Positions 631-57,693 of a DNA stretch of 64,000 bases are shown in pieces; the stretch's first letter is position 1; each line of letters begins with the position of its first letter. The stretch comes from Ashinkailepas kermadecensis (taxonomy: Eukaryota; Arthropoda; Thecostraca; Neolepadidae): NCBI GenBank assembly GCA_034440615.1, contig JAOTOM010004375.1, forward strand, positions 124,001 to 188,000, in the 5' to 3' direction. The notes below the pieces were generated by a model that worked only from the letters and a program-made list of their open reading frames with translations, was not told the origin of the DNA and did not search any database. The translations under genes and the position numbers were made by a program.

Positions 631-645
631 AATATATATATATAC

Positions 646-710
<65 letters not shown>

Positions 711-711: not shown

Positions 712-775
712 TGGTCAGCATGATATATGCCCGTAGCAGTACGGTTTCCGCCCTGGCCTATCTACGGAAGCGTGC

Positions 776-2105: not shown

Positions 2106-2206
2106 CCACACCATAACTGGTCATAATAGAAAGACAAATCTCAGTGGCCATGTACCATGTGCAGGTGTATCTTGAGTGAACCAATATTATTTTGTTCTGT
2201 TTCCAG

Positions 2207-3330: not shown

Positions 3331-3780
3331 TGAATATATATTTATGTTTTGAATATATATACATTAATTTTATATATGTTGAATATGTATGCATTAATAC
3401 TATATATTTTTGATATATATATATACCTTAATATGATATATGTGGAATATATATACATTAATATTATATATTTTGAATATATATGTAGTCGCTGGGTCCG
3501 AATGGCAAACACGTATGACAGATTTCAAGTTCACACCGCCCGCGGCCAGCTTTATTCTCACACTCCCCGCGGCCGGGTGTTTTGGCGCGAAACCAAGAAG
3601 CCAATGGGAAGGCACGCGTCGCCAAGGCGACTGCGCGGGACCATAACGTCACCCGTCTACATATATACATTAATATTTGTATATATTGAATATATATACA
3701 TTAATATTATATATTTTGAATATAGTTGCATTTTAAATATTAAATATATATTTTGAATATATAATTTGGAATAATTATTT
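3331..3780. repeat. AT-rich degenerate tandem repeat with GC-rich insert
   Basis: Copies of a roughly 28-bp motif (ATATATACATTAATATTATA and relatives) occupy 3331-3486 and 3658-3780. Between them, 3487-3657 is GC-rich and starts and ends with inverted TATATGTAG / CTACATATA. The insert may be a small non-autonomous DNA element. Confidence 0.7.
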
Positions 3781-4074
3781 TGAAGTGGCCTGTAACATGA
3801 CATTGCTTCGTGAACACCGCGTCCAACGAACACCGCGTCCAACGATACCAATGTGGTGACTCATGACATAAGCTGTCTACGTGTAAGTCAAGAACTACCA
3901 TGGCACTGGCATACGATAATGGGTGATGAACAGATTGTGTTATGTCGGCGCTGATTGTATGCAATGCACAATACATCCCAAGGGCCTGGAAGTGTCTTTG
4001 GTGTGCCTATCTGGCAGATATGTGAATATCAGTATTTGCAAATGGAATTATTTCATGGTCCACCCTACCCCTTG
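3781..4074. other. Unassigned spacer
   Basis: No coding or repeat structure recognised, apart from a two-copy direct repeat of CGAACACCGCGTCCAA near 3811-3843. Confidence 0.3.
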
Positions 4075-4214
4075 ATTGGTTAATGGGGTTAAAGGCGCAC
4101 CGACAGCAGTTGGTGAATGGGGTTAAAGGCGCACCCACAGCAATTGGTTAATGGGGTTAAAGGCGCACCCACAGCAATTGGTTAATGGGGTTAAAGGCGC
4201 ACCCACAGCAGTTG
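4075..4214. repeat. 34-bp tandem repeat, 4 copies
   Basis: Units contain TTAATGGGGTTAAAGGCGCA and differ by one or two bases. Confidence 0.93.
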
Positions 4215-4505
4215 GTGAATGCGGCCGACGCCTTTGATCTCTTGCCTATTCGCTTATTGCATCGATGGTCGAGGAATTCACCACCGGATAAGCCAGCTTT
4301 CAACGGCGGTTTCGGCTGAGAGAACCACCGTCGGACGTGGCCTGGGAGCCTGTCGAGACGCAGCTGTCATGCGGCGCAATGCTGTGCTGGCCGGCAGGCG
4401 CGTCACTTTATAACGGAAATAGTTGGTGAAGGTCAATGGTTAAATGCGGACTGTACGTCGTAGTAGGTGAAGAAGACTAAGGATGTATTAGATGACAAAA
4501 GTATG
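4215..4505. other. Unassigned spacer
   Basis: No motif, repeat or splice structure recognised. Confidence 0.3.
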
Positions 4506-4565
4506 GGAGCGAATGATCAATTCTGGTCGAAGCGCCCTAAAGCCCAAATAACTAACTAACTAACG
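4506..4565 (+). mobile_element. Tail-only retroposon insert
   Basis: Contains GGTCGAAGCGCCCTAAAGCC then CAAATAACTAACTAACTAAC, the 3' tail shared by SINEs and the I-clade LINE of this window. Imperfect flanking repeats TGACAAAAGT and TGACGAAAGT look like a target-site duplication. Confidence 0.6.
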
Positions 4566-5600
4566 GTGACGAAAGTGATTAAGAGAAACCAGAGAAGGAT
4601 TTGACTTGAAAATCTGCATCTGCAAGCAATCGTCCAAACGTATCCTAGCGAGTAGCATTGTGGATGACCTGACTCCGACACACAGTACTCGGATTTTCTA
4701 TGGACTACCCAAAGATCGCAAGCCTTGAGTTCCTCTTCGGCCAGTGATAGCGACGTGTGGGGGCCCAACTGGAGAAGAAAACGACTTGATTTTTAGGAAA
4801 GGTGCTAAATCAGGTCTTGAAATTCTCTAAACTTTACTTGACTGACACTGACCACATTCTTCGTGGTCTGGACCAGTTCTGAACTGAACATTAAGTTGCT
4901 CAGCATGCTATATTTTTCAGTACGGATATTGTTAACCTGTATGGAAGCATTCCTTTAGATGATGCGGTGAGTTGCGTGCGTGAGGCCCTGGATAACTGAC
5001 ATTATAACGACAGACACAGCAGGCTTGAGGCCCTGGACAGACACTATAACGACATAGACACAGCAGGCCTGAGGCCCTAGACAGACACTATAACAACCTA
5101 GACACAGCAGGCTTGAGGCCCTGAACAGACACTATAACGACACAGACACAGCAGGCCTGAGGCCCTAGAAAGACACTATAACAACCTAGACACAGCAGGC
5201 CTGAGACCCTGGACCGACACTATAACGATATAGACACAGCAGGCCTGAGCGTAAGCGATATTTGTGACATGCTAGAGCATTGTTTCACGAATCATGTGTT
5301 TCGATTTGGCAGTCAAGTCTATAGGTAGATGACGGGAGGGGCTATGGGGAACCCTGCAGCTCACGTGGTGGATATTTTGTACCTGGACCGTTTCGAGGGG
5401 CAAGCCGTAGAACGTGCGGAAATTCGACCCGCTTTTCTGGAAGCTTTTCCGGTACATAGATGACTATGTTGTGGTATGGTTGCAAAGTAAAGCGTCACTC
5501 CTTGCTTTCGTGAGTTACATGAATAGTACACAAAATAGGATCAAGTTTACTTTGGACATGACTGGGGATGGGAGTGAGCCATTCCTGTGCTGAATACCCT
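4566..5600 (+). mobile_element. Penelope-like element RT remnant
   Basis: The conserved blocks of a Penelope-like reverse transcriptase appear in order. IFYGLPKDRKP and LRPVIATCGGPT are near 4690-4765. DIVNLYGSIPLDDAV is near 4925 (family: S.DV..LYTNIP). GGAMGNPAAHVV is near 5335 (family: GTAMGSPLAP.). RYIDDYVVVW is near 5450, with the catalytic YIDD. IKFTLDMTGDG is near 5550. Several stops and frame changes break it, so it is inactive. An internal 44-bp array (4980-5247) expands the segment after the SIPLDDAV block. On the right it is cut by the 3' end of an I-clade LINE lying on the opposite strand. Confidence 0.8.
4980..5247. repeat. 44-bp tandem repeat inside Penelope RT, about 6 copies
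   Basis: Units run from GAGGCCCTGGACAGACACTA through GACACAGCAG. Each is a copy of the RT coding segment EALDRHYNDIDTAGL. Because 44 is not a multiple of three, the array destroys the frame. Confidence 0.9.
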
Positions 5601-5619: not shown

Positions 5620-7100
5620 ATTTGGGGTTTAGGGCGCTTGTACCAAAATGTCATCATTTAGCGCCCATAACGTTTATTTAGCATGCCAGAATCCTATTAA
5701 GTTATATTAACGTGAGTATATAGCTTAAAATCCTATCGCTCTTAGGTACCTGAATATGCTACCGGAGCGAATTATTTCCAAGTCATCTGCTAGCACGTCA
5801 CGATACGTTAGATCTCCGATCCTGTTTCCGTAGAACAACCCAGAACAACCCTGAGAAGTATCAGGACGAAAAAAGCACATGTCGCACCGTGAGGGACAGC
5901 GGGGGCAGCTTCCAGACAGCGGGGGCACTCGGGTCTCTTTCCCACAGAGGAGGTATTGGTGAGTAGCGTGTGTGTAGCCGGTTCGCGGTCTACATGGAGT
6001 CACCTCGTCACTCAAGGTGTGGTTTTATTGAATGCAGCTCATTGTTGGACTGTGCGTTCCAACTCCCCTGCCACTTTGCATTCATGTGCGATGACATTCC
6101 AGAAATCTGGTCCCTGGCTGGCAGTGGGAGAATACGTGCTGAGGTGTTTGGCCTGCCCATTTCACTGCCGAATCGACTCGCACATTGACATAATTTCCGA
6201 CCTGGTTCAGTACCCAGCACAAGCAAACGCTTTTCCCGTCTCGTTCCAGAGTAGTTAGACGTGTCAGAATGTCCACCAGGAGAGTGTCTGCAGGGTAAAC
6301 TGCGGTAGGCGTCCAAGGCTGCTAAGAGAGTCGGACAGCATGACGCATGAGACATCTTGTGATACCTCGATGAAAGAAAGCGCTTTAAGTATCGCCATCA
6401 GCTCACAGGCATACACTGAAGCATACACAGGCGGGGTACAAGATCTTGTGGACACGCCGCACACGAAAGCACATCCTGCTCCAGTGCTGTTCTTCGATCC
6501 ATCAGTAAATATTGGTGTATATTCTTGATATGTATCTAAGTGCTCCAGGGTGTTCATGCGGAACAGTTCAGGTGTCACATGATCCTTGCGCATAACTGTC
6601 AGCGGTAGGTCAACTACTGGGGAGACCAGATACCAGGGCGGTACTGCTAGTTTCTGTGCACGCATCACCCGACGGACTCGTACACCACCCTCCTCGAAGA
6701 GAGCACGGATTCGGACACAGAACTGTAAAGCTGTCATATTTCTGCCACTGCGAAAGAGCGCTAGAGTATGTCGCGAGAACACCATGTCGTAGGTGGGGTG
6801 GGTGGGGAACTGCCGCAGTCTGCATGCGTAGCGAAAGGCCCAACATTTGACGTCTTCACGCCCCGGGGGAGGTTCGTTCAACTCCGCGAGCAGACTGGCA
6901 ATCGGCGTAGTTCTAAACGCCCCGGTGATGGTCCGCAGCGATGCTGTACGGCGTCAAGAGTACGCTTGTTACTCTTGCAGGTACCATCATACACATAGCA
7001 TGCGTAGTCCAACTTAGATCGAATGAGTGACCGATAAAGCATCAGTAATGTTTTTCGGTCAGAACCATAGCAGGCTCGTGATATGCATTTCAACAAGTTT
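5620..7100 (-). mobile_element. I-clade LINE, RT thumb to 3' tail, decayed
   Basis: Read from 7100 downwards. RT thumb LYRSLIRSKLDYACYVYDG (7050-6990) is followed by LNEPPPGRED and RYACRLRQFPTHPTYDMVF (about 6880-6790). An RNase H domain follows at about 6520-6300, with all three visible acidic residues: IFTDGS, ACELMAILKAL and LSDSLSSL. The C-terminus has ATHQYLLCGKE and CPRC near 5940-5895, then DDLEIIRSGSIFRYL (5780-5735). It ends near 5630 in a tail reading GCGCCCTAAACCCCAAATA. RNase H after RT places it in the I group rather than CR1/L2. At least three frame breaks make it inactive. It shows what the inflated plus-strand copy at 42.3-57.3 kb looks like without arrays. Confidence 0.82.
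5895..5927. repeat. Two-copy 20-bp duplication at the CPRC codons
   Basis: GACAGCGGGGGCA occurs at 5895-5907 and 5915-5927. On the minus strand it covers the Cys-Pro-Arg-Cys codons of the LINE C-terminal knuckle. Confidence 0.85.
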
Positions 7101-7689
7101 AGTATCTTAAAATACTTTTATATCGGTGTTTTAAAATGTTGTTTGTACGCCAGACGACTATCGAACTGCACGACAAGGAACTTTATGTTTGGGTGAACAG
7201 GAATGGACGAGCCATACAAATTCGTGTTCAGTTCTTGAGAGCACCGACTTCTGCAGGAATGCATTGCAACCGTTTTATCTGTGGAGAAGCTGAGTTTATG
7301 TGTAATAACCCATATTTGGCGGTGGTTCGTCGCAAGCTGTATCTGTCGTATTAGCGATAATGTGTTCGAGCCAAAAGATCATGTCGCAAAGTCGACGGAT
7401 AGCGGTCGTCTGATACCACGCGGTGGTGCGTCCCCGATATCATTCATGAACAGCAAATAAGGCAACGCTCGGAACACTGCCTTGTGGAATTCCATTGCTT
7501 TGGTGAAAACGTTGGGAAAGCTCGTAACCTGAAGAGACAATCCTTCAAAACTAGCATCAAAGCTAATCTATCAAAATCAAAATTAATATCAAGACTAGCA
7601 GGATAACTGTAGACCCATACCACCAACACTCACTTCAACACGCAATGCATGCCCACGAAACACTCGTAGGAAACGCGTGAATAGCCATC
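7101..7689. other. Unassigned spacer
   Basis: A 72-codon open frame at 7136-7354 has no recognisable domain. No repeat or splice structure seen. Confidence 0.3.
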
Positions 7690-7925
7690 CCCGAATGGCG
7701 TCGGACGTACATGAGCGGATCTGATTTCCAATTAGAAATGCATGGTTACCTAGCGGTGCCGTCGGACGTAGATGAGCCGACTTAAGCTTTAGGGAAAAAT
7801 CATCATAGCGTAAAACGACTACCCAGAGGAGCCATCGGACGTAGACGAGCCGATCTACCTTGCAAATCACGACGTAAAACGGCTGCCCAGAAGTAGAGCG
7901 GACGTAGATGAGCCGAATAGCAAAA
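7690..7925. repeat. Degenerate 63-65-bp tandem repeat, about 4 copies
   Basis: A core like CGGACGTAGATGAGCCGA recurs near 7703, 7766, 7829 and 7898, with weaker similarity between the cores (CGTAAAACGRCT and CCCAGA). Confidence 0.75.
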
Positions 7926-29126: not shown

Positions 29127-29406
29127 CAAGTTTAAAAAGCACGATGGTTTAGCACGATGACCAGTCTCCAAGGTGTGGTTTTATTGAATGCAGCTTATTG
29201 TTTGACTGTGCTTTCAACTCCTCCGCCGGGGACGAGTGGTCTAGGGGTAAGATGCTCGTCTCGCAATCGAAAGATTGTGGGTTCGAATCTCACCTGTCGC
29301 TACTTTTCGCCCGCGACCAATCGGCGTGAGAGATTGGCGACGCTATATGACTCAACGGTCGACGTGTCGTAAAACCAATAACCAACCAACCAAGTTTAAA
29401 AAAGCA
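29127..29406 (+). mobile_element. Chimeric insert: antisense LINE piece + SINE family 1
   Basis: CAAGTTTAAAAAGCA at 29,127-29,141 recurs with one extra A at 29,391-29,406, forming a target-site duplication. Inside, 29,157-29,224 matches the I-LINE copy at about 6,004-6,072 (shared AAGGTGTGGTTTTATTGAAT). This is followed without a gap by a full SINE (29,225-29,390) with A-box TGGTCTAGGGG, B-box GGGTTCGAATCTC and the tail GTCGTAAAACCAATAACC. Confidence 0.82.
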
Positions 29407-33277: not shown

Positions 33278-33470
33278 TCGTGCCGAAATAGAGGGGACGA
33301 GTGGTCTAGGGGTAAGATAATCGTCTCACAATCGAAAGATTGTGGGTTCGAGTCTCACCTGTCGCTACTCTTCGCCCGCGACCAATCGGCGTGAGAGATT
33401 GGCGACGCTATATGACTCAACGGTTGACGTGTCGTAAAAACCAATAACCAACCAAATCGTGCCGAAATAG
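33278..33470 (+). mobile_element. tRNA-derived SINE family 1, complete, with TSD
   Basis: TCGTGCCGAAATAG at 33,278-33,291 and 33,457-33,470 flanks a 165-bp element. It has A-box TGGTCTAGGGG, B-box GGGTTCGAGTCTC, body GCGACCAATCGGCGTGAGAG and tail GTCGTAAAAACCAATAACC. Confidence 0.92.
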
Positions 33471-41720: not shown

Positions 41721-42689
41721 CATGTGTACGACACCATAGGGTGCACGTGCACCGAAAGCTGGTGGCCTGTTTGAGCCCCTTTCAGGAACAAACGGTCGGG
41801 AACGCGCTTGTGTCGTGTATTTACTGTGTGTTCACTTCTGCCGTGTATTTACCGTGTGTGTTTACCGTTTATTGTGTCGTGTATTTACCGCGTGCATGAT
41901 GTGGTGTAGTTGCTGTGTGGCTGCTGGTGTGCTCTTCTCGGGAGGGGGGCTCGCTACGCACGACTCGTGTGCTCGTCTCAGGGGGCTCGCGACGCCCGGG
42001 TAGTGGGTGGTGATGCCGAGTGTGAGCCACGCTGTGGCTTTGAAGGGGTGTCAGCTGTCGGTTGGTCTCATTTCTCAGTGTCGTCACAACGGTTAGTCTG
42101 GATTACGTCTCAGCGGCGGCTTCTCATCTGTGTTGTCTACATCGAGTCGCCCGCGTTTCATTTGTTCAGTTGCACTCCGTTGTGTATTTTCTAGCTCGCT
42201 AATTACGGTTCATGCAGATGTTTCATCCCTCGTTTTATATGCGATCGCACGTGCATAATTGTGTGTTTGTAATACACGCCACCCGAGCGCTCAGGGGGCC
42301 AGGAGACGCCTTGCTTGCTGCAGCGAAGTGTTGGACATTGCAGGACTTGGTGGCACATTGGTGTCGGGTCACACAAGGTCGGGCCCCCTGCCCGCAGTGG
42401 GGTCAGCCATCGTTACTCGGCTGGCTCGGGAGATGGCGCTCCCTCGGGTTGGACCTGAAGAGCCGACCCGCAGGCCACGCCCCCGCACCAGGTGCCGCCA
42501 ATGAGCGGCGACGCCCCGCCCCCGCCGCCCGCGGCTCCCGGCCACGGCTGGGTCAAGGACCTGAACGGCGTCACCTCCTGAAGGGGGGGGGGGGGTCACC
42601 ACCATTCCGCCTAAGGACGTCGCTTGATGCGCAGTGAGCACTTCTAGTCGTTCATCTCACCCACTTAGACTCAACGCCTTATCACCTTT

Positions 42690-42805
42690 AGTTTTACTGT
42701 AGGACATGCGTGCCTTTAGAGCAAATGTTCCCGGCCTGCAGAGTGATTTATATCACAGAAGGCTTACTGCTGCAGTCATTCAGGAAACGAAGCTTTTAGG
42801 AAGTA
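42690..42805 (+). pseudogene. I-LINE endonuclease N-terminus
   Basis: MRAFRANVPGLQSDLYHRRL and AAVIQETKLL match the start of APE-type endonucleases (WN.RG...K...L and the metal-binding QET). Interrupted at 42,806 by a SINE. Confidence 0.7.
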
Positions 42806-43144
42806 TCCAGTGACGTATTGGGGGACGAGTGGTCTAGGGGTTAGATGCTTGTCTCACAATTGAAAGATTGTGGGTTCGAATCTCACCTGTCGCTACTCTT
42901 CGCCCGCGACCAATTGGCGTGAGAGATTGGCGACGCTATATGACTCAACGGTCGACGTGTCGTAAAACCAATAGCCAGTGACGTATTGGAGGATATTCGG
43001 TTTTGTCTCACAATTGGAGAGATTGTGGATTCGAATGTCACCTGTCGTTACTCTTCGCCCGCGACCAATTGGCGGCGAGGATTGGCGACGCTATATGACT
43101 CAACAGTCGACGTGTCGTAAAACCAATAGCCAGTGACGTATTGG
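42806..43144 (+). mobile_element. Two SINE family-1 copies in tandem, three TSD copies
   Basis: CCAGTGACGTATTGG occurs at 42,806-42,820, 42,975-42,989 and 43,130-43,144. A full SINE lies between the first two and a head-truncated SINE between the last two. Either a second insertion hit the duplicated target, or SINE plus TSD was duplicated. Confidence 0.88.
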
Positions 43145-43156
43145 GGATATTGTTTT

Positions 43157-46100
43157 CCGGCGGTGTGATGTCTGGCTACACACGCACGTGGCGGACTCCA
43201 CCGGGGACTCCGGCGGTGTGATGCTGGCCATACACCACGGGACTCCGGCGGTGTGATGCTGGCCATACACCACGGGACTCCGGCGGTGTGATGCTGGCCA
43301 TACACCACGGGACTCCGGCGGTGTGATGCTGGCCATACACCACGGGACTCCGGCGGTGTGATGCTGGCCATACACCACGGGACTCCGGCGGTGTGATGCT
43401 GGCCATACACCACGGGACTCCGGCGGTGTGATGCTGGCCATACACCACGGGACTCCGGCGGTGTGATGCTGGCCATACACCACGGGACTCCGGCGGTGTG
43501 ATGCTGGCCATACACCACGGGACTCCGGCGGTGTGATGCTGGCCATACACCACGGGACTCCGGCGGTGTGATGCTGGCCATACACCACGGGACTCCGGCG
43601 GTGTGATGCTGGCCATACACCACGGGACTCCGGCGGTGTGATGCTGGCCATACACCACGGGACTCCGGCGGTGTGATGCTGGCCATACACCACGGGACTC
43701 CGGCGGTGTGATGCTGGCCATACACCACGGGACTCCGGCGGTGTGATGCTGGCCATACACCACGGGACTCCGGCGGTGTGATGCTGGCCATACACCACGG
43801 GACTCCGGCGGTGTGATGCTGGCCATACACCACGGGACTCCGGCGGTGTGATGCTGGCCATACACCACGGGACTCCGGCGGTGTGATGCTGGCCATACAC
43901 CACGGGACTCCGGCGGTGTGATGCTGGCCATACACCACGGGACTCCGGCGGTTGGTACACCACGGGACTCCGGCGGTGTGATGCTGGCCATACACCACGG
44001 GACTCCGGCGGTGTGATGCTGGCCATACACCACGGGACTCCGGCGGTGTGATGCTGGCCATACACCACGGGACTCCGGCGGTGTGATGCTGGCCATACAC
44101 CACGGGACTCCGGCGGTGTGATGCTGGCCATACACCACGGGACTCCGGCGGTGTGATGCTGGCCATACACCACGGGACTCCGGCGGTGTGATGCTGGCCA
44201 TACACCACGGGACTCCGGCGGTGTGATGCTGGCCATACACCACGGGACTCCGGCGGTGTGATGCTGGCCATACACCACGGGACTCCGGCGGTGTGATGCT
44301 GGCCATACACCACAGGCCGCGGTGTGATGCTGGCCATACACCACGGGACTCCGGCGGTGTGATGCTGGCCATACACCACGGGACTCCGGCGGTGTGATGC
44401 TGGCCATACACCACGGGACTCCGGCGGTGTGATGCTGGCCATACACCACGGGACTCCGGCGGTGTGATGCTGGCCATACACCACGGGACTCCGGCGGTGT
44501 GATGCTGGCCATACACCACGGGACTCCGGCGGTGTGATGCTGGCCATACACCACGGGACTCCGGCGGTGTGATGCTGGCCATACACCACGGGACTCCGGC
44601 GGTGTGATGCTGGCCATACACCACGGGACTCCGGCGGTGTGATGCTGGCCATACACCACGGACTCCGGCGGTGTGATGCTGGCCCCAAATGGACTCCGGC
44701 GGTGTGATGCTGGCCATACACCACGGGACTCCGGCGGTGTGATGCTGGCCATACACCACGGGACTCCGGCGGTGTGATGCTGGCCATACACCACGGGACT
44801 CCGGCGGTGTGATGCTGGCCATACACCACGGGACTCCGGCGGTGTGATGCTGGCCATACACCACGGGACTCCGGCGGTGTGATGCTGGCCATACACCACG
44901 GGACTCCGGCGGTGTGATGCTGGCCATACACCACGGGACTCCGGCGGTGTGATGCTGGCCATACACCACGGGACTCCGGCGGTGTGATGCTGGCCATACA
45001 CCACGGGACTCCGGCGGTGTGATGCTGGCCATACACCACGGGACTCCGGCGGTGTGATGCTGGCCATACACCACGGGACTCCGGCGGTGTGATGCTGGCC
45101 ACACACCACGGGACTCCGGCGGTGTGATGCTGGCCATACACCACGGGACTCCGGCGGTGTGATGCTGGCCATACACCTTTTCACGGGACTCCGGCGGTGT
45201 GATGCTGGCCATACACCACGGGACTCCGGCGGTGTGATGCTGGCCATACACCACGGGACTCCGGCGGTGTGATGCTGGCCATACACCACGGGACTCCGGC
45301 GGTGTGATGCTGGCCATACACCACGGGACTCCGGCGGTGTGATGCTGGCCATACACCACGGGACTCCGGCGGTGTGATGCTGGCCATACACCACGGGACT
45401 CCGGCGGTGTGATGCTGGCCATACACCACGGGACTCCGGCGGTGTGATGCTGGCCATACACCACGGGACTCCGGCGGTGTGATGCTGGCCATACACCACG
45501 GGACTCCGGTGTGATGCTGGCCATACACCACGGGCCGCCATAACACGGGACTCCGGCGGTGTGATGCTGGCCATACACCACGGGACTCCGGCGGTGTGAT
45601 GCTGGCCATACACCACGGGACTCCGGCGGTGTGATGCTGGCCATACACCACGGGACTCCGGCGGTGTGATGCTGGCCATACACCACGGGACTCCGGCGGT
45701 GTGATGCTGGCCATACACCACGGGACTCCGGCGGTGTGATGCTGGCCATACACCACGGGACTCCGGCGGTGTGATGCTGGCCATACACCACGGGACTCCG
45801 GCGGTGTGATGCTGGCCATACACCACGGGACTCCGGCGGTGTGATGCTGGCCAACACCACGGGACTCCGGCGGTGTGATGCTGGCCATACACCACGGGAC
45901 TCCGGCGGTGTGATGCTGGCCATACACCACGGGACTCCGGCGGTGTGATGCTGGCCATACACCACGGGACTCCGGCGGTGTGATGCTGGCCATACACCAC
46001 GGGACTCCGGCGGTGTGATGCTGGCCATACACCACGGGACTCCGGCGGTGTGATGCTGGCCATACACCACGGGACTCCGGCGGTGTGATGCTGGCCATAC

Positions 46101-47310
46101 ACCACGGGACTCCGGCGGTGTGATGCTGGCCATACACCACGGGACTCCGGCGGTGTGATGCTGGCCATACACCACGGGACTCCGGCGGTGTGATGCTGGC
46201 CATACACCACGGGACTCCGGCGGTGTGATGCTGGCCATACACCACGGGACTCCGGCGGTGTGATGCTGGCCATACACCACGGGACTCCGGCGGTGTGATG
46301 CTGGCCATACACCACGGGACTCCGGCGGTGTGATGCTGGCCATACACCACGGGACTCCGCGCGGTGTGATGCTGGCCATACACCACGGGACTCCGGCGGT
46401 GTGATGCTGGCCATACACCACGGGACTCCGGCGGTGTGATGCTGGCCATACACCACGGGACTCCGGCGGTGTGATGCTGGCCATACACCACGGGACTCCG
46501 GCGGTGTGATGCTGGCCATACACCACGGGACTCCGGCGGTGTGATGCTGGCCACACACCACGGGACTCCGGCGGTGTGATGCTGGCCATACACCACGGGA
46601 CTCCGGCGGTGTGATGCTGGCCATACACCACGGGACTCCGGCGGTGTGATGCTGGCCATACACCACGGGACTCCGGCGGTGTGATGCTGGCCATACACCA
46701 CGGGACTCCGGCGGTGTGATGCTGGCCATACACCACGGGACTCCGGCGGTGTGATGCTGGCCATACACCACGGGACTCCGGCGGTGTGATGCTGGCCACA
46801 CACCACGGGACTCCGGCGGTGTGATGCTGGCCATACACCACGGGACACCGGCGGTGTGATGCTGGCCATACACCACGGGACACCGGCGGTGTGATGCTGG
46901 CCACACACCACGGGACTCCGGCGGTGTGATGCTGGCCATACACCACGGGACTCCGGCGGTGTGATGCTGGCCATACACCAGGGACTCCGGCGGTGTGATG
47001 CTGGCCATACACCACGGGACTCCGGCGGTGTGATGCTGGCCATACACCACGGGACTCCGGCGGTGTGATGCTGGCCATACACTACGGGACTCCGGCGGTG
47101 TGATGCTGGCCATACACCACGGGACTCCGGCGGTGTGATGCTGGCCATACACCACGGGACTCCGGCGGGTGATGCTGGCCATACCACAGGACTCCGGCGG
47201 TGTGATGCTGGCCATACACCACGGGACTCCGGCGGTGTGATGCTGGCCATACACCACGGGACTCCGGCGGTGTGATGCTGGCCATACACCACGGGACTCC
47301 GGCGGTGTGA
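43157..47310. repeat. 35-bp satellite, about 118 copies (LINE EN-derived)
   Basis: Core GGCGGTGTGATGCTGGCCAT plus ACACCACGGGACTCC. Most copies are identical. Irregular units are at 43,951, 44,306, 44,685, 45,178, 45,510 and 47,165. Read in one frame, a unit codes GGVMLAIHHGTP, the endonuclease segment of the surrounding LINE. 35 bp is not a multiple of three and the unit has no stop on the minus strand, so minus-strand frames of over 1,400 codons arise by chance. Confidence 0.97.
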
Positions 47311-49232
47311 GGCCAGGCAAACATGTCTGAACACACACCTCCCAGTTGCCGGCTATGCGCGTCTCTACCAGCTCCTATAAAGTATCACCCATATCCCTCG
47401 AACAGCTAACCAAAATTGTCATGGATATGAGGAGCACAAGTGCTTGCGGACCCGACGGGATCTGTATTAAGGTCATCAAATTTCTGTTCTTTTTTATCGG
47501 AGAAGTGCTGCTCGACATTATAAACACATGCCTGACTACAGCTGATATCCCCTCCACTTGGAAACAGTCAATAGTAACTCCCATTCACAAATCAGGAGAT
47601 CCTTCGGATCCCTCTAATTTTAGGCCCATCTCATTGGTTCCGGTTATCGCCAAAATCACAGAGAGGGTAGTGCAGAAGCAACTCTATCACTACCTGAACG
47701 CAAACCACCTACTGGCCCAAACTCAGCACGGCTTCAGACCACGCCACTCTACGGAAACCGCTCTGATCTCAGTCTCGGACAAATTACTAGCAGCAATGGA
47801 CCGTTCGGAAGTAGCTCTCCTTTGCATTCTGGACCTCAGTAAATGCTTCGACGTAATAGATCACACCAAACTGCTCACTAAACTAGAACTCCATGGAATT
47901 GATACTGACTGGTTTAAGGCTTATCTGGGAGGTCACACGCAGGCTGTTAGCATCTCAGATCAACGCGGAAACAGGCATCTCTCCTCCTTTCTTCCTAACA
48001 ACATAGGTGTTTTTCAAGGCTCATCACTAGGTCCACTCCTCTATTGCATCTTTTCGAACGACCTCAGTTTGCACGTCCCGGTAGCACACGTCACTCAGTT
48101 CGCAGACGACACCCAGGTCCTCATCTCCGGTCGCAAATCTGATCTCCCAAATCTGATAAATCAGATGGAGACATGTCTGAACCAACTATACGACTACTTC
48201 CTGGATAACGGTTTGAAGGTAAACCCGACCAAAACTCAGCTTCTCACGTTCGGATCGCGTCAGAATCTTCGCAATATTACCCCGATACGAGTGTGCTTTA
48301 GGGACGCTGTGATATATGAAAGTCATTCGTGTAGGAACCTTGGGGTGACATTTGATCGCCACATGTCGTGGGATTCCCATGTAGCTGCCGTGGTCCGCAA
48401 GTGCACTGGATTCCTTATGGCCCTGAACCATCTGCGTCACCATCTGCCAACCAGTACCCTCTTCACTATAGTCAATAGCCTTGTTATATCCAATATCCGC
48501 TACTGCATATCTGTTTATGGGAACGGGTCGGCAGCAAACATCAACAGACTAGACAAAATCATTAACTTCGCCACTAGAGTCGTGTCAGGTCTACGGAAAT
48601 TTGATCATATTTCTGATGCCCGTAACGAGTTGGGTCTTCTCACCGCAGCTGATCTGCATCTATTTCACAGCCTTACTTTGCTCCACAAGATCATTCTGAC
48701 GGGTGAGCCAACGCACATTGCCGGTCAAATCTCTGCAAACTCTACCCTGCGAAACCGTCATACGCGTGCAGACGACCACCTGCACCTACCAGCCATACAC
48801 AGAGAGGCGGGACGCAGGAGATTTCTCTACTCGTCTGTCTTCCACTACAACAAACTCCCTACTGAAACAAAAACATTGAAGCTGTCTAACTTCAAGAAGC
48901 GTGTACGAGCTTATCTCCACGAGCAACACTAGTCACAAAAAAACTTACAAAATATATTTGTGTACACCATGCACTCACATTTAGGCCATCGCTTTCATAT
49001 CACTTCCATAAACTACTCGTTTACAGCTCGTGTTGCAAGCAAGGTGTGTGTAGTGCAGAGTGATATGGGTATTGTACTATGTTGGTGTATGAATGTTTGT
49101 TGCGCATGTGTTCCCACTATTGACCACAAATCTATCCTTTCTTTGTAAATATCTGTGTTATACCCAGACTGTCCATAATAGCCACTATACGTGGAGGGCA
49201 TGTATTGTGAAATAAATGAAATAAATAAATAG
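47311..49232 (+). mobile_element. L2-like LINE with intact RT ORF, nested in the satellite
   Basis: One open frame, 47,346-48,932, 528 codons. RT blocks in order: STSACGPDGI, WKQSIVTPIHKSGD, NFRPISLVPVIAKI, TQHGFRPRHSTETAL, LLCILDLSKCFDVIDH (first catalytic Asp), GVFQGSSLGPLLY, QFADDTQVLI (catalytic pair), LKVNPTKTQLLTFG, RNLGVTFDRHMSWDSHV and YGNGSAANINRLDKII. The C-terminus is EAGRRRFLYSSVFHYNKLP. It has no RNase H. The 5' end is truncated before the endonuclease, and the 3' end is an (AAAT)n-type tail. The satellite unit is interrupted at GTGTGA and resumes at ATGCTGG, with at most 1-2 bp duplicated. Confidence 0.92.
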
Positions 49233-49402
49233 ATGCTGGCCATACACCACGGGACTCCGGCGGTGTGATGCTGGCCATACACCACGGGACTCCGGCGGTG
49301 TGATGCTGGCCATACACCACGGGACTCCGGCGGTGTGATGCTGGCCATACACCACGGGACTCCGGCGGTGTGATGCTGGCCATACACCACGGGACTCCGG
49401 CG
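49233..49402. repeat. 35-bp satellite, right-hand part, 5 copies
   Basis: Same unit as 43.2-47.3 kb. The last copy passes in frame into LINE endonuclease sequence (GTPARE). Confidence 0.97.
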
Positions 49403-49736
49403 CGAGAGGTAGTACTGCACTACGCGACAGGCTGTTGCCGTACGTGATCTCCTTCGTATCGGTGAATTCACCACTATGCGGTAATCTTGTCCCTATTTTT
49501 ATTTCTGTCTCCTGGAATGATTTCCTGGTGCAGAATTTAGACGCCGTATGCTGGAGCTTCCTCCCGTTGTACCTTTAGGTGATTTATGCTATGATTTTAT
49601 GCTGAGGGGTTCCGCCACTACTGACGCTCGTGGCAGACATATGGTAGCTGTTTAACCGACGAATCGTTATGTTTGCTAAACACGGGCTCTGCGACACGTA
49701 TAGCGCTACAGTCGGGAAACATCAGTTTTAGATCAG
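49403..49736 (+). pseudogene. I-LINE endonuclease segment, copy A
   Basis: Continues the last satellite unit: AREVVLHYATGCC, RRMLELPPVVPLGDL and ARGRHMV. Aligns end to end with the next segment (copy B) but with several stops. Confidence 0.7.
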
Positions 49737-50170
49737 TTGGTGTGATGCTGGCTGTGCACCGTGGAACACCTACTCGTGAAATAGCATTGCAGCCAACACT
49801 GTAGGCTGTAACCGTAGGTATTAATACTCACCACCTTGTTCTTTCATTGTGTTCAATGTATCTGCCTCCGGGAGATGTTATGCCCTCTGATGAGCTCAGA
49901 AGTCTTATGCTGGAACTTCCTCCTCTCGTTTTACTTCTCGGTGATTTTAACTCTCATCATACTCTGGAGTTATGCCACTGCCAACTCCCGTGGTAGGCAC
50001 ATGGAAGCCTTTTTAATCGACGAATCGCTGTGCACACTAAGCACAGGTTCTTCGACGCATATAACGCTACCATCGGGAAGCAGATCGGATTTGGATCCGA
50101 GCCTTTGTAGCTTCCAGATCAACCAGAGCTCTGTTTGACCGGCAGCTGATGGCCTGCTCTGACGTCATCA
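49737..50170 (+). pseudogene. I-LINE endonuclease segment, copy B
   Basis: GVMLAVHRGTPTREIALQPT, then CSMYLPPGDVMPSDELRSL, MLELPPLVLLLGDFNSHH and NSRGRHMEAFL, then SGSRSDLDPSLCS. The catalytic GDFN is kept, and the SDH position reads SDV at 50,160 where the next array starts. Copy B carries a single, unamplified GVMLAVHRGTP. Confidence 0.8.
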
Positions 50171-51597
50171 TTTACCAGGCTCGTTGCTATTTCGCTGCGG
50201 TGTCGTTTACCAGGCTCGTTGCTATTTCGCTGCGGTGTCGTTTACCAGGCTCGTTGCTATTTCGCTGCGGTGTCGTTTACCAGGCTCGTTGCTATTTCGC
50301 TGCGGTGTCGTTTACCAGGCTCGTTGCTATTTCGCTGCGGTGTCGTTTACCAGGCTCGTTGCTATTTCGCTGCGGTGTCGTTTACCAGGCTCGTTGCTAT
50401 TTCGCTGCGGTGTCGTTTACCAGGCTCGTTGCTATTTCGCTGCGGTGTCGTTTACCAGGCTCGTTGCTATCGTTCGTTGCTATTTCGCTGCGGTGTCGTT
50501 TACCAGGCTCGTTGCTATTTCGCTGCGGTGTCGTTTACCAGGCTCGTTGCTATTTCGCTGCGGTGTCGTTTACCAGGCTCGTTGCTATTTCGCTGCGGTG
50601 TCGTTTACCAGGCTCGTTGCTATTTCGCTGCGGTGTCGTTTACCAGGCTCGTTGCTATTTCGCTGCGGTGTCGTTTACCAGGCTCGTTGCTATTTCGCTG
50701 CGGTGTCGTTTACCAGGCTCGTTGCTATTTCGCTGCGGTGTCGTTTACCAGGCTCGTTGCTATTTCGCTGCGGTGTCGTTTACCAGGCTCGTTGCTATTT
50801 CGCTGCGGTGTCGTTTACCAGGCTCGTTGCTATTTCGCTGCGGTGTCGTTTGTCGTTGCTATTTCGCTGCGGTGTCGTTTACCAGGCTCGTTGCTATTTC
50901 GCTGCGGTGTCGTTTACCAGGCTCGTTGCTATTTCGCTGCGGTGTCGTTTACCAGGCTCGTTGCTATTTCGCTGCGGGTGTTGCTATTTGCTGGGTGTCG
51001 TTTACAGGCTCGTTTTCGGTGCGTTGGTCGTTTACCAGGCTCGTTGCTATTTCGCTGCGGTGTCGTTTACCAGGCTCGTTGCTATTTCGCTGGGTGTGTT
51101 ACCGGCTCGTTTTTTCGTTGCTATTTCGCTGCGGTGTCGTTTACCAGGCTCGTTGCTATTTCGCTGCGGTGTCGTTTACCAGGCTCGTTGCTATTTCGCT
51201 GCGGTGTCGTTTACCACGGCTCGTTGCTATTTCGCTGCGGTGTCGTTTACCAGGCTCGTTGCTATTTCGCTGCGGTGTCGTTTACCAGGCTCGTTGCTAT
51301 TTCGCTGCGGTGTCGTTTACCAGGCTCGTTGCTATTTCGCTGCGGTGTCGTTTACCAGGCTCGTTGCTATTTCGCTGCGGTGTCGTTTACCAGGCTCGTT
51401 GCTATTTCGCTGCGGTGTCGTTTACCAGGCTCGTTGCTATTTCGCTGCGGTGTCGTTTACCAGGCTCGTTGCTATTTCGCTGCGGTGTCGTTTACCAGGC
51501 TCGTTGCTATTTCGCTGCGGTGTCGTTTACCAGGCTCGTTGCTATTTCGCTGCGGTGTCGTTTACCAGGCTCGTTGCTATTTCGCTGCGGTGTCGTT
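50171..51597. repeat. Second 35-bp array, about 41 copies (EN end)
   Basis: Unit TTTACCAGGCTCGTTGCTAT plus TTCGCTGCGGTGTCG, unrelated in sequence to the first 35-bp unit. A degraded block lies at 50,975-51,120. It starts right after SDV of the endonuclease and ends in LINE sequence FLETRPQRWN. Confidence 0.97.
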
Positions 51598-51659
51598 TTT
51601 GGAAACGAGACCACAGCGGTGGAACAAAGTCAACAAAGTCAGCTGGCGTCAGTTAGATA

Positions 51660-52040
51660 TAATGGCACAATAGGATAATAATTGTGTAATAGTATAGTAA
51701 CAGTACAATAGCATTGTTTAAGCATAATAGTCTGGTAATTGTCTGGTAACAGTATAGTAAATAGTATAATACCATCACAGTAATATAATATTATAGCAAT
51801 AGTATAATAGCATTATAATATCATAGTAATATTATATTAGTATGGATGTAATAGAATATAAATACTAGCAGGAGATGTAATAGAAAAGTCGCCCATTGAC
51901 TTTCAGACAATCTCAGAAACTCTCAGACAATCCAGGCCACCACTTCTCGTCGAATATTTTGCTTCAGCAATAATCGACTCTGCCTCCGAATGCATACCTA
52001 GGACCTCCAGAACAGAAGTGGTGGACACAGAGGCGCCGTG
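51660..52040. repeat. AT-rich ATAGTATAGTAA-type low-complexity stretch
   Basis: Irregular AATAGTATAATA units. No LINE motif is visible. Confidence 0.7.
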
Positions 52041-52042
52041 CT

Positions 52043-52606
52043 CCCGTGCCGTGGCGGACCGAGCAGTGCCGGGCTGTTACCCGTGCCGTGTCGGACCGAG
52101 CAGTGCCGGACTGTTACCCGTGCCGTGGTGGACCGAGCAGTGCCGGGCTGTTACCCGTGCCGTGTCGGACCGAGCAGTGCCGGACTGTTACCCGTGCCGT
52201 GGTGGACCGAGCAGTGCCGGACTGTTACTCGTGCCGTGGCGGACCGAGCAGTGCCGGACTGTTACCCGTGCTGTGGCGGACCGAGCAGTGCCGGACTGTT
52301 ACCCGTGCCGTGGCGGACCGAGCAGTGCCGGACTGTTACCCGTGCCGTGGCGGACGGACGAGCAGTGCCGGACTGTTACCCGTGCCGTGGCGGACCGAGC
52401 AGTGCCGGACTGTTACTCGTGCCGTGGTGGACCGAGCAGTGCCGGACTGTTACCCGTGCCGTGTCGGACCGAGCAGTGCCGGGCTGTTACCCGTGCCGTG
52501 TCGGACCGAGCAGTGCCGGACTGTTACCCGTGCCGTGGTGGACCGAGCAGTGCCGGACTGTTACCCGTGCCGTGGTGGACCGAGCAGTGCCGGACTGTTG
52601 CCCGTG
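52043..52606. repeat. 37-bp tandem repeat, about 15 copies
   Basis: GGACCGAGCAGTGCCGGACT plus GTTACCCGTGCCGTGGC. It lies in the LINE linker between RWN and LIAFRKARA; the seed sequence could not be matched to a named motif. Confidence 0.97.
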
Positions 52607-52639
52607 CTCGGAGACGAGCTCACGGCGCTTCTGACCGGC

Positions 52640-53040
52640 TCAGCACGAGAGCAAATCTGATAGCATTTCGGAAGGCAAGGGCGAATCCTCGGCGCACAAG
52701 TATCGAGGCAAATGGGATGTCCTGGACATAATACGTTGGAAATATTAGACGATTTGCATCAAACAGATTATAATTACAGTAGATTACAACGGATTAAAAA
52801 TAGACGAGTTGGGACAAATCTCGTCCCAGGTCTGGCGTATTTCCGGATAGTTCTCGTCAGTTTCTCTCTCAGTGTTGAGGGGAGGGAGGGCTGATGTTGC
52901 CCATCCGTCAGATGTCGCAAATGAGATGGGTTGTTTTGTCTCGGAATATGGTAGTGGTGGAAACACTGGTCCAAAGTTTTTGCGTTCTAAGTCGAATTGC
53001 GAGGGGAACCTTAATCAATCCAGACTCACTTGACTACATT
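52640..53040 (+). pseudogene. I-LINE linker before RT
   Basis: LIAFRKARANPRRT and DVANEMGCFVSEYGSGG match the segment between endonuclease and RT in I/Jockey elements (L.AFR.ARA.ARRT; P.DIAN.LG..F). Confidence 0.7.
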
Positions 53041-53249
53041 TGTTCGTTCCAATAAATCGACCAAACTAGTATATATGATTTGACATTGAAGCTGTACCGT
53101 GATTTATCCAATTACGCACTGCATTTAGGGTTTTTTTCGGAGTGTATTTGAACAACCGTTATCGACAGGGAAGATCTTAGACTACTCCGTGACAAATGCA
53201 TTGCTCTCTGAATATTTAAAAAAGTGTCGCATGCACATCATATGGAGAT

Positions 53250-53460
53250 GATAGAGTCAGTTCTGTGTCGCATGGACATCATCGGAAGCTGATAAACAGA
53301 CATGCTACTTTCTATCGGTCTCTCATCTGCTCCTGGCTAGATTGTGCCTGCTTTGTCTATGACGATGCCTGTGTATCCGGGAGATACGTTTTGGATGTAG
53401 CAGCTATTTTTAGATGTAGCAGCTCTGAGGATTGTGACTGGTGTATTGCGGACATCGCCA
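53250..53460 (+). pseudogene. I-LINE RT thumb
   Basis: FYRSLICSWLDCACFVYDD corresponds to LYRSLIRSKLDYACYVYDG of the 7-kb copy. After it, RIVTGVLRTSPSASLL runs straight into the 52-bp array. Confidence 0.75.
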
Positions 53461-54592
53461 TCCGCCAGCCTTTTGACGTCAACGAGCCACCACACTCCAG
53501 TGCCCATCGCCATCCGCCAGCCTTTTGACGTCAACGAGCCACCACACTCCAGTGCCCATCGCCATCCGCCAGCCTTTTGACGTCAACGAGCCACCACACT
53601 CCAGTGCCCATCGCCATCCGCCAGCCTTTTGACGTCAACGAGCCACCACACTCCAGTGCCCATCGCCATCCGCCAGCCTTTGACGTCAACGAGCCACCAC
53701 ACTCCAGTGCCCATCGCCATCCGCCAGCCTTTTGACGTCAACGAGCCACCACACTCCAGTGCCCATCGCCATCCGCCAGCCTTTTGACGTCAACGAGCCA
53801 CCACACTCCAGTGCCCATCGCCATCCGCCAGCCTTTTGACGTCAACGAGCCACCACACTCCAGTGCCCATCGCCATCCGCCAGCCTTTGACGTCAACGAG
53901 CCACCACACTCCAGTGCCCATCGCCATCCGCCAGCCTTTTGACGTCAACGAGCCACCACACTCCAGTGCCCATCGCCATCCGCCAGCCTTTTGACGTCAA
54001 CGAGCCACCACACTCCAGTGCCCATCGCCATCCGCCAGCCTTTTGACGTCAACGAGCCACCACACTCCAGTGCCCATCGCCATCCGCCAGCCTTTTGACG
54101 TCAACGAGCCACCACACTCCAGTGCCCATCGCCATCCGCCAGCCTTTTGACGTCAACGAGCCACCACACTCCAGTGCCCATCGCCATCCGCCAGCCTTTG
54201 ACGTCAACGAGCCACCACACTCCAGTGCCCATCGCCATCCGCCAGCCTTTTGACGTCAACGAGCCACCACACTCCAGTGCCCATCGCCATCCGCCAGCCT
54301 TTTGACGTCAACGAGCCACCACACTCCAGTGCCCATCGCCATCCGCCAGCCTTTTGACGTCAACGAGCCACCACACCCAGTGCCCATCGCCATCCGCCAG
54401 CCTTTTGACGTCAACGAGCCACCACACTCCAGTGCCCATCGCCATCCGCCAGCCTTTTGACGTCAACGAGCCACCACACTCCAGTGCCCATCGCCATCCG
54501 CCAGCCTTTTGACGTCAACGAGCCACCACACTCCAGTGCCCATCGCCATCCGCCAGCCTTTTGACGTCAACGAGCCACCACACTCCAGTGCC
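53461..54592. repeat. 52-bp tandem repeat, about 22 copies (RT-thumb derived)
   Basis: CATCGCCATCCGCCAGCCTT plus TTGACGTCAACGAGCCACCA plus CACTCCAGTGCC. The unit codes TSPSASLL in one frame and DVNEPPHSS in another, which are the LINE residues expected here. Three units lack one T. Confidence 0.97.
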
Positions 54593-54865
54593 CGTGCTTC
54601 TTGTGAGTGAGCGTCCACGTCCACGTAATTATCAAGCGTCATTAAACGTCCAATAATTCGGAGGACATTCTGCCATTTCTGTTTATCCCTTGACCTCACA
54701 ACCAGTTAGAACACTTGTGCAACACAACACTCAATATCAGATGACTAACATTCTCATCCCACCACCTGCCTCGAACGTCAAAAGGCTTGTATTTCAGTAA
54801 CACGCCGTTCTAAACACATTCATAACAGGCCACGATAAACTAGCACACAAACAAGGAGGAGACAG

Positions 54866-55470
54866 ATGCTCGGGATACGATACTCATGCACATTATGCCG
54901 TTTTCCGCAGCACCCAGCTCATCAAGCGGTGTTCTCGCGTCGCGCCCTATCAGTTGTATCGCGCAGTGACGCCCCCATATACAGACCTCTGTGCACTGGA
55001 ATTCGTCACCAATTTGATGAAAGTCCACGAGAAATGCGCAATGCCAAACGCTCCATGCAGGTGGCAACGCCTCCTTAACGACTTCTCTCACGGGAACCGA
55101 GAATGGCGCTCGTCTTGGCTGACATCCGTGGAGGGGATGTTCCCCTCAGGAGTTGCAAGCGCATGCTCCAGAGCACGCATCGACATTTTATGCCAGCTAT
55201 GCAACACACATCCGAGCTGGTAGTAATTTATCCAGCACTGACTGTCACAGGGGTCGGGGATGAAGAACATCGCCACATTGTATTCGACTTGTTGAGCAGC
55301 TTTTCGCTATTGAAGGGCTTTAGTCCCTCATACCCTTTAGTACATGATATCTTCCGTCGCCTGATTGCATTCTATGAGGCAGGGAAGGTCGTCAACTTCT
55401 GCCGGATTCCTAGCCATGTAGGTATCGTAGACAATGAACAAGCCAACAGTGCTACTAAACCAGCGGTGTA
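54866..55470 (+). pseudogene. I-LINE post-thumb region and RNase H, decayed
   Basis: RYSCTLCRFPQHPAHQAVF parallels RYACRLRQFPTHPTYDMVF of the 7-kb copy. The RNase H end reads RIPSHVGIVDNEQAN, where family members have GNE.AD, so the last catalytic Asp is Asn. Confidence 0.78.
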
Positions 55471-55623
55471 GCATCCATTGCATTCCAAATCCCGGCCACG
55501 GGGAACCACCCGGGGATCTCTGTTTTCTGGCGAACAAATAATAAGCCAGCTGGGACGAGCTTGTTTGCAACAAATCACTGACGGTAAAGCCCTCTCGACC
55601 AGTCGCTTTGCCGCTCGCACAGG

Positions 55624-56122
55624 AGGGTGGGACGAGGTGATGTTGTGCCGTATATCTCCACGCTTAGGTCATACTTATGGCCACCCATGGTAACTACTAC
55701 TACTACATAGGAGGGTGGGACGAGGTCATGTTGTGCCGTATATCTCCACGCTTAGGTCATACTTATGGCCACCCATGGTAACCTACTACATAGGAGGGTG
55801 GGACGAGGTCATGTTGTGCCGTATATCTCCACGCTTAGGTCATACTTATGGCCACCCATGGTAACCTACTACATAGGAGGGTGGGACGAGGTCATGTTGT
55901 GCCGTATATCTCCACGCTTAGGTCATACTTATGGCCACCCATGGTAACCTACTACATAGGAGGGTGGGACGAGGTCATGTTGTGCCGTATATCTCCACGC
56001 TTAGGTCATACTTATGGCCACCCATGGTAACCTACTACATAGGAGGGTGGGACGAGGTGATGTTGTGCCGTATATCTCCACGCTTAGGTCATACTTATGG
56101 CCACCCATGGTAACCTACTCAG
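55624..56122. repeat. 83-bp tandem repeat, 6 copies (LINE C-terminus)
   Basis: Each unit codes WDEV.LCRISPRLGHTYGHPW, the LINE segment matched by RTGYTHATHQYL in the 7-kb copy. The first unit has extra TACTAC repeats. Confidence 0.95.
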
Positions 56123-56141
56123 TGGTGAGAATACGTCACCA

Positions 56142-56952
56142 GATGTCCCAGATGTGTCCCAGATGTATCCCAGATGTGTCCCAGATGTATCCCAGATGTG
56201 GTCCAGATGTGTCCCAGATGTGTCCCAGATGTATCCCAGATATGTCCCAGATATGTCCCAGATGTATACCAGATGTGTCCCAGATGTGTCCCAGATGTAT
56301 CCCAGATGTGTCCCAGATGTGTCCCAGATGTGTCCCAGATGTCCAGATGTGTCCCAGATGTATCCCAGATGTATACCAGATGTGGTCCAGATGTGTCCCA
56401 GATGTATACCAGATGTGTCCCAGATGTGTCCCAGATGTATCCCAGATGTGTCCCAGATGTGTCCCAGATGTATCCCAGATGTGTCCCAGATGTGTCCCAG
56501 ATGTGTCCCAGATATGTCCCAGATGTGTCCCAGATGTATACCAGATGTGTCCCAGATGTGTCCCAGATGTGTCCCAGATGTCCAGATGTGTCCCAGATGT
56601 ATCCCAGATATGTCCCAGATGTGTCCCAGATGTATCCCAGATGTATACCAGATGTGGTCCAGATGTGTCCCAGATGTATACCAGATGTGTCCCAGATGTG
56701 TCCCAGATGTATCCCAGATGTGTCCCAGATGTGTCCCAGATGTATACCAGATGTGTCCCAGATGTGTCCCAGATGTATCCCAGATGTGTCCCAGATGTAT
56801 CCCAGATGTGTCCCAGATGTGTCCCAGATGTATACCAGATGTGGTCCAGATGTGTCCCAGATGTATACCAGATGTATCCCAGATGTGTCCCAGATGTATC
56901 CCAGATGTGTCCCAGATGTGTCCCAGATGTATCCCAGATGTGTCCCAGATGG
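56142..56952. repeat. 11-bp tandem repeat, about 74 copies (CPRC knuckle)
   Basis: CAGATGTGTCC and variants (GATGTATACCA, GTGGTCCAGAT). The seed TGTCCCAGATGT codes Cys-Pro-Arg-Cys. Confidence 0.96.
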
Positions 56953-57143
56953 GCTGCAGCGCCAACAGACCGTCACATTCTGATTTCATGTCCGAGGTTT
57001 TTTTTCGGGAGCACCGACGTTATTTCGGGATTGACCAGTCTCACTCCCTCGTACTCTCAGTAGCAGTTTCAGGCGCTAAATCGCAGATCGTTGAATCCGG
57101 GAAACACTTCAGCTTCCTTTCTGATGTGCAATTTTGTGCCTAG
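56953..57143 (+). pseudogene. I-LINE C-terminus
   Basis: DRHILISCPRF, then EHRRYFGID and IVESGKHFSFLSDVQF, ending at TAG. Matches DDLEIIRSGSIFRYLRAIGF of the 7-kb copy. One frameshift. Confidence 0.75.
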
Positions 57144-57299
57144 GGACTTTGATCTACCCGGGATGTTGATATATCTAGATACACTGGAAACGGTACGCAT
57201 AGTACAATTGACGTTGCATAGCCACACTTGTTATAAACGATGCATGACATTGTAGTCGACGCACCCCTAAGCCCAAAGAATCAATCAACCATGTCGAGT

Positions 57300-57450
57300 C
57301 ATATATGGCCAGTGGTGTCAGGCTATATCAGGTCGAGCTGGATTTGACCCAGTGTTGGCAGGTCACATCAGTTGGAGTCAGATTTGACCCAGTGTTGACA
57401 GGTCACATCAGGTCGGGTTGTGACAGGTCACATCAGGTCGGCTCGTGTCA
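57300..57450. repeat. Degenerate AGGTCACATCAGGTCGG repeat
   Basis: About six variable copies. Confidence 0.8.
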
Positions 57451-57693
57451 GGCTGTATTTATTCGTCTTCGACCGCATCTTATCTACCCTCGTGTTATAA
57501 CCAATTCCACAGTTAGTTCTATGTGCCTTTTGACTCAGCGGCCTGTACTTGGGATGGGAGTGCGTGATTGCGAAGCAGTGCGTGCGTGATTGCAGTGCGT
57601 GATTGCGAAGCAGCATACATGCGGAGATGGTTCAGCTCTCTAGATGTAGCTAAGCAGATATATCAGATCAAGAGCGGCGGTGTCCCGTCCTGG

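Follow-up and report, generated by a model that had tools for sequence, protein, structure and literature searches.

We analyzed a window of 64,000 nucleotides from the Ashinkailepas kermadecensis genome (positions 124,001-188,000 of contig C3878, in an assembly of 907,663,968 bases), in which positions 42,632-57,288 of the + strand hold a decayed I-type long interspersed nuclear element (LINE), represented by part of its second open reading frame (ORF2) and its 3' end. We conclude with high confidence that this is one LINE copy carrying six tandem arrays of its own coding sequence, and that the arrays probably arose on the spot once the element had landed, through short tandem duplications later expanded by slippage or unequal exchange. 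The 14,657 bp of the window copy stand for 3,872 bp (positions 376-4247) in L032, a collinear, array-free sister copy. An earlier note on this DNA had described a LINE inflated by arrays of 35, 35, 37, 52, 83, and 11 bp; all six are present at those periods, together covering 8,719 bp by cyclic alignment, and the length ratio of 3.79 bears out the inflation. We apply the clade name I to this element provisionally.

When aligned to L032 at the DNA level, the LINE islands between the arrays keep the same order on one strand (+). The start of the endonuclease domain (42,632-42,812; 72-73% identical to sister copies L031, L032, and L033) corresponds to L032 376-554, the endonuclease to 618-1081, and the endonuclease end to 1037-1149. 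The main endonuclease island, copy b of a segment present twice (49,738-50,170), is of the Exo_endo_phos_2 kind (Pfam PF14529, E 4.2e-10 in a read-through translation with X at the breaks). It is followed by the linker upstream of the reverse transcriptase (RT) (51,922-52,042; 69-75% identical to L031-L033; L032 1169-1291), the linker with the N-terminal part of the RT (52,608-53,038; L032 1268-1699), and the RT thumb (53,076-53,452; L032 2545-2927), the RT palm (L032 1700-2544) having been deleted from the window copy. The end of the thumb and the RNase H lie at 54,856-55,620, with the RNase H corresponding to L032 2935-3881 and the part matching L032 3285-3386 deleted, about where related proteins have TDGSK. 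The C terminus and 3' end (56,952-57,288) match L032 3906-4247 at 67% and L020 at 79% over 67 bases.

Protein comparisons gave the same arrangement. Relatives were found from an I-type fragment on the other strand of the window (6,264-6,953) and extended by alignment to 291 proteins, 120 of them listed, among which 28 (P0127-P0154) were compared with the islands. On the + strand, the thumb at 53.2-53.4 kb was matched by 23 of the 28, the thumb-to-RNase H stretch by all 28 (best E 6e-32, P0128), and the C terminus, weakly (E 0.08 or worse) but collinearly, by 10; P0138 matches either side of the 52-bp array. Many relatives carry PF00075, the RNase H domain, downstream of the RT; in the window, the corresponding pieces gave no match to Pfam. 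The order endonuclease, RT, RNase H, C-terminal motif is kept on one strand, and the islands named in the earlier note fall neither on different families nor on different strands. Among the listed relatives with a named source, the closest come from the barnacle Amphibalanus amphitrite (P0004 and P0132, uncharacterized proteins), and two more distant hits bear the names of a Solemya velum symbiont record and of the beetle Callosobruchus chinensis. Searches of PDB with the endonuclease island found no sequence match, and among viral contigs no relative of the I-type proteins was confirmed in 24 candidate stretches. A second decayed I-type LINE copy lies at 5,900-7,700 on the minus strand of the window and has no array at its thumb site.

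The earlier note had begun its ordered series of islands with an ORF1 knuckle, and here its account holds only from the endonuclease to the C terminus. The proposed knuckle at 42.3-42.6 kb has no Pfam match, and positions 42,300-42,631 are not detectably LINE: compared with the regions upstream in three sister copies, they aligned no better than shuffled sequence (0 of 3, with a positive control at 3 of 3). The 28 relatives gave some chance-level matches on both strands at 42.3-43.2 kb. Because L031 and L033 have about 380 bp in common further upstream, the window copy is likely 5'-truncated, with the ORF1 zinc knuckles probably lost from it rather than absent from the family.

All six arrays lie on the + strand. 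The first, A35, has a left part at 43,204-47,310 (117.5 copies of a 35-bp endonuclease unit, 98.5% identity), whose unit aligns to L031, L032, and L033, and a right part at 49,232-49,402 (4.9 copies, 100% identity), in register with the left part with a 2-nt overlap. B35 (50,171-51,598; 40.1 copies, 96.3%) is built from the endonuclease C terminus, C37 (52,043-52,607; 15.2 copies, 96.6%) from the linker, and D52 (53,453-54,593; 22.0 copies, 99.7%) from the thumb. E83 (55,621-56,119; 5.95 copies, 98.6%) repeats the stretch that reads EEVxLCRLRxGHTYxTHGxLL in the relatives, and F11 (56,144-56,951; 74.0 copies, 93.7%) repeats their CPRC motif. None of the periods is a multiple of three. The A35 unit has 114 matches in the window at no more than 2 mismatches, compared with a maximum of 0 over 100 shuffles.

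That the arrays derive from the coding sequence of the LINE itself, as the earlier note had proposed, is borne out by the alignment of one unit of each of the six to the single-copy segment of L032 at that place. Anchored on the right, the units are identical to L032 at 25/40 bases in A35, 24/36 in B35, 37/42 in C37, 34/38 in D52, 54/67 in E83, and 11/13 in F11. In five arrays this alignment continues into the right flank; D52 has 0 aligned flank bases, in keeping with the 262-bp stretch next to it (54,594-54,855), which is absent from L032 and resembles L010 at 79% over its first 47 bp. Anchored on the left, D52 aligns over its unit (35/40) and its flank (29/33), and the left-anchored rows of A35 and C37 include no flank bases. 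Summed over the right-anchored rows, units are identical to L032 at 185/236 bases (78%) and flanks at 160/210 (76%), a comparison of divergence that gives no dating of the arrays. Compared with L032, the D52 units lack a net 4 nt, a frameshift, with 18 units exact and the other four one base shorter still, and the E83 units carry a 6-nt in-frame insertion and a 1-nt insertion common to 6/6.

Related copies in the same genome retain the state without arrays. The endonuclease island returned 143 genomic candidates, 40 of which were scored, and the 39 matches other than its own are 79-84% identical and all start at or after window position 49,738. Six of these 39 were fetched (L031-L036), with L032 serving as the reference and counted as its own match. 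One uninterrupted alignment runs across the sites of A35, B35, and C37 in 6/6 fetched copies, and across those of D52, E83, and F11 in 3/3 copies that reach them (L031, L032, and L036). L036 matches L032 at 87% throughout, and at score 40 no tandem repeat is called in L032. In our genome sample, the I-type copies L019 and L020 also lack arrays at the E83 and F11 sites. Since the related copies read are array-free at the same places, the arrays likely grew inside the window copy after it had landed, in agreement with the local amplification that the earlier note had envisaged; they consist of the host LINE's own coding sequence and were likely gained by this copy.

The units themselves appear to be private to the locus. 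Across the whole assembly, the A35 unit was counted 114 times and the B35 unit 33 times (no more than 2 mismatches), and the D52 unit 18 times (no more than 3), in each case with every occurrence in the window; the E83 unit was counted 6 times, all at this locus. Thus none of these four searched units has a near-exact occurrence elsewhere in the assembly at 2-3 mismatches. No match to any of the six units was found in 220 kb of fetched sequence, and viral contigs contained no exact match to the 35-bp unit. The description of this transposon as a satellite nursery was therefore overstated, since the four units are found only here and the portion of the genome that we sampled has many arrays.

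One array has also been interrupted, which allows its age to be placed relative to another element. A young, 5'-truncated LINE of a different family, of the endonuclease-RT type without RNase H, lies inside A35 at 47,311-49,231 on the + strand (RVT_1, 1e-33). A35 stops at phase 17 to the left of it and resumes at phase 16 to the right, and, being in register on either side, was already present when this LINE inserted; A35 predates the insertion. All 40 scored matches of the inserted family (its own included, from 1,210 first-look candidates) are 99-100% identical, none of its 120 listed relatives has an RNase H domain in precomputed Pfam annotation, and in 7/7 other fetched copies (L002-L008) the sequence extends upstream of the point, about 47,312, at which the window copy starts. 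We considered whether the RT at 47.3-48.9 kb might be the one missing from the host LINE and ruled this out, because its family copies elsewhere are 99-100% identical and its best I-type relatives reach only 24-25%.

Array junctions offer a view of how the duplications may have begun. Overlap was taken as array length modulo unit, with chance estimated from random positions, and amounts to 12 nt in A35, 3 in B35, 7 in C37, and 1 in D52, with none in E83 and none, by phase, in F11. Depending on the period, an overlap of at least 3 nt is expected by chance in about 6.6% of cases, at least 7 nt in 0.14-0.47%, and at least 12 nt in 0.07-0.25%. At the F11 site of L032, TGTG occurs twice, 11 nt apart, which is the right period in a motif too short to weigh. 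In the course of events that we propose, the LINE would have inserted and decayed, and short tandem duplications would have arisen in its coding sequence after insertion and been expanded by slippage or unequal exchange. The A35 (12 nt by phase) and C37 (7 nt) duplications may have been seeded by junction homology, and those of B35, D52, E83, and F11 may have been started by end joining or by homology that escaped detection. The same tandem-duplication process would act widely in the genome, with the LINE as a passive substrate. Because the net 4-nt loss in D52 and the 1-nt gain in E83 are common to their units, the reading frame was likely broken before these arrays grew, and the LINE was probably dead before at least two of them arose.

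Several points weigh against this reading. The sites were read in only six of the 39 scored matches other than the window's own, and L033, L034, and L035 stop short of those of D52, E83, and F11. L031 is 91% identical to L032 at the 5' sites and only 60% at the 3' sites, and its 3' half may belong to another I-type copy. The genome-wide unit search covered A35, B35, D52, and E83, and its pattern allows only 2-3 mismatches, so that diverged arrays elsewhere escape it. Junction overlap exceeds chance in only two of the six arrays, with no clear seed in the other four; E83 is 4 nt short of a whole unit and has no overlap, and the 12-nt overlap of A35 is blurred by a degenerate unit on its left. 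Differences within arrays are mostly insertions or deletions (indels), clustered in places, in A35 (42/61), B35 (43/53), D52 (4/4), and E83 (5/7), and part of the copy number or variation may therefore be assembly error.

If the arrays, or most of their copies, were assembly artefacts, one would expect something like the clustered, indel-rich differences of A35 and B35 and the single-base losses of D52, which resemble uncorrected long-read error. We regard this explanation as unlikely, since differences in C37 and F11 are mainly substitutions (16/19 and 45/51), A35 keeps its register across the second LINE inserted in it and continues on the far side for 4.9 perfect copies, and arrays of at least 300 bp occur in 19/20 sampled stretches of one contig; copy number itself lies outside these points. 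The indel-rich differences of A35, B35, D52, and E83 may reflect recent growth plus assembly error.

Two other explanations are far less probable still. The LINE lineage could have transposed with the arrays already in it, as some Helitrons do, and elements with internal arrays do exist, including, in this genome, a segment with the same arrays at loci L012 and L013 (98.6% identity over 1,967 bp). This is refuted for the copies we examined, which are array-free at every site covered, and the absence of near-exact A35, B35, D52, and E83 units from the rest of the assembly, and of all six units from the 220 kb, leaves it very little room. Equally hard to credit is a chance cluster in which unrelated satellites and pieces of several LINEs came to lie side by side. 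A second LINE family and a short interspersed nuclear element (SINE) are indeed present within the span, yet for all six units L032 has a matching single-copy segment at that place, and island order and strand are preserved. The earlier note's single LINE accordingly stands as far as the islands are concerned, which belong to one element in one orientation, and needs amending for the 1.9-kb LINE of another family and the SINE inserted into it. The growth of the six arrays within one copy, out of its own coding sequence, remains the reading that we favor.

The neighborhood of the LINE is itself rich in tandem repeats. Taking the non-array sequence between 20 and 64 kb of the window as surroundings, a comparison chosen post hoc, we counted 7 arrays of any length in 3,454 bp of non-array LINE sequence and 34 in 23,856 bp of the 30 kb around it (2.03 vs 1.43 per kb, p 0.26). 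For arrays of at least 300 bp, the counts were 6 and 6 (1.74 vs 0.25 per kb, p 0.002), and as the LINE region was picked for its arrays, these p values flatter the excess. A general excess of arrays of any length in the LINE is thus unsupported; the excess is confined to long ones. In its first 20 kb, the window contains 11 arrays, 1 of them at least 300 bp long; in the two stretches flanking the window, there is 1 array in L009 and there are 22 in L010, of which two reach at least 300 bp. In a 200-kb sample of contig C4687, taken as 20 stretches of 10 kb (L011-L030; 2,500 bases masked; units of at least 7 bp), arrays cover 46,877 bp, or 23%, and 45 are at least 300 bp long. These stretches and the two beside the window (220 kb) hold 43 arrays that are about 300 bp or longer and have units of at least 15 bp; the only types seen at a second sampled locus are the two common to L012 and L013, and a single array shows weak similarity to an I-type protein (E 0.02). 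Array formation is likely a genome-wide process that has used the LINE as a substrate, in a sample that is thin and drawn from one contig. More tentatively, and with somewhat less than even confidence, we suggest that an unusually active tandem-duplication process makes locus-private minisatellites out of single-copy and transposon sequence at very high density, in which case the many LINE copies would be a natural replicated experiment on minisatellite birth, their sister copies revealing the state before the arrays.

L012 (5557-9410) and L013 (5615-10000), which lie 100 kb apart, have a common segment (95-99% identity) with the same 103-bp array (32-bp sub-unit) and the same 61-bp array, the latter differing in length between the two; it is possible that this segment is a mobile or duplicated unit that carries its arrays. 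L033 has a tandem array at 3559-5401 whose 84-bp units resemble C2H2 fingers by eye, and the window has a C2H2 zinc-finger open frame at 2,176-2,913 (Pfam). The 3' end of the LINE family adjoins short tandem arrays of differing unit length in the window (57,309-57,452), in L034 (1589-1731), and in L035 (2306-2506); such an array is not found in L032 and lies 125 bp off in L036. These 3' arrays might reflect a target preference.

Besides the LINE inside A35, two features within the span had been missed by the earlier note. The first is a tRNA-derived, internally duplicated SINE, which with one copy of its target duplication occupies 42,807-43,129 on the + strand, is 94-96% identical to relatives at window positions 29,228 and 33,293 (tRNA by ARAGORN and Rfam), and is bounded by a 17-bp target duplication, CCAGTGACGTATTGGGG, at 42,807 and 43,130. 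Copies of this SINE at 29,228-29,384, 33,293-33,450, and 42,821-43,132, and in L011, L018, L024, and L025, are about 93-97% identical to 42,818-42,975, and older copies at 26,765 and 34,439 and in L010 are 74-76% identical. The second is copy a of the endonuclease segment (49,363-49,734, + strand), a tandem duplicate that represents the same L032 segment as copy b (49,738-50,097) and is the only one of the two that A35 touches. The copies are identical at 234/328 aligned bases, so their duplication is likely old, and copy a was not seen beside copy b in the other genomic matches. An AT-rich stretch with a degenerate periodicity of 19-30 bp (51,671-51,921) is nearly all absent from the three sister copies compared.

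The birth of a minisatellite is hard to study, since the sequence that existed before the duplication does not normally survive. At this locus, that sequence is still present in single copy in sister elements of the same genome, from which one can read directly which unit was chosen, what homology the junctions had, and in what order events took place. As arrays cover 23% of the one-contig sample, many transposable element (TE) copies could be compared in this way, which would give both a rate and a mechanism for array birth.

Arrays derived from TEs are already known, and the value of this locus lies in six births with the pre-array state still readable. By title and start of abstract, in a partial coverage of the literature, we found no paper on one LINE copy with several ORF2-derived arrays. 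According to one review (PMC9659126), tandem repeats may arise from any portion of a TE, and ORF2 examples exist: chicken HinfI, related to CR1 ORF II, and Phodopus PROsat, related to L1 ORF II, have a LINE coding source as the arrays here do. HinfI and PROsat are genomic satellites, whereas the four units that we searched for do not leave their founding copy. Another review (PMC12628747) reports different array types inside single Helitrons, and the Crassostrea gigas Helitron/Helentron cited in it resembles our LINE in holding several array types in one mobile element; the C. gigas types recur across elements, and those here, in a LINE, are copy-specific as far as tested. In PMC12628747, satellites are also traced to TE loci that have been shuffled and degraded, much like the decayed copy in this window. 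TE-born minisatellites, as treated in PMC6947457 and in a human survey (PMC3389668), likewise consist of units of about 10-100 bp taken from TE sequence and repeated in place. PMC6947457 invokes for them the short-direct-repeat duplication model of Haber and Louis, which fits two of our six junctions, with homology beyond chance, and leaves four without a clear seed. The present case differs in that a single copy holds six arrays, every one of them derived from ORF2 coding sequence, and has array-free sisters in the same genome.

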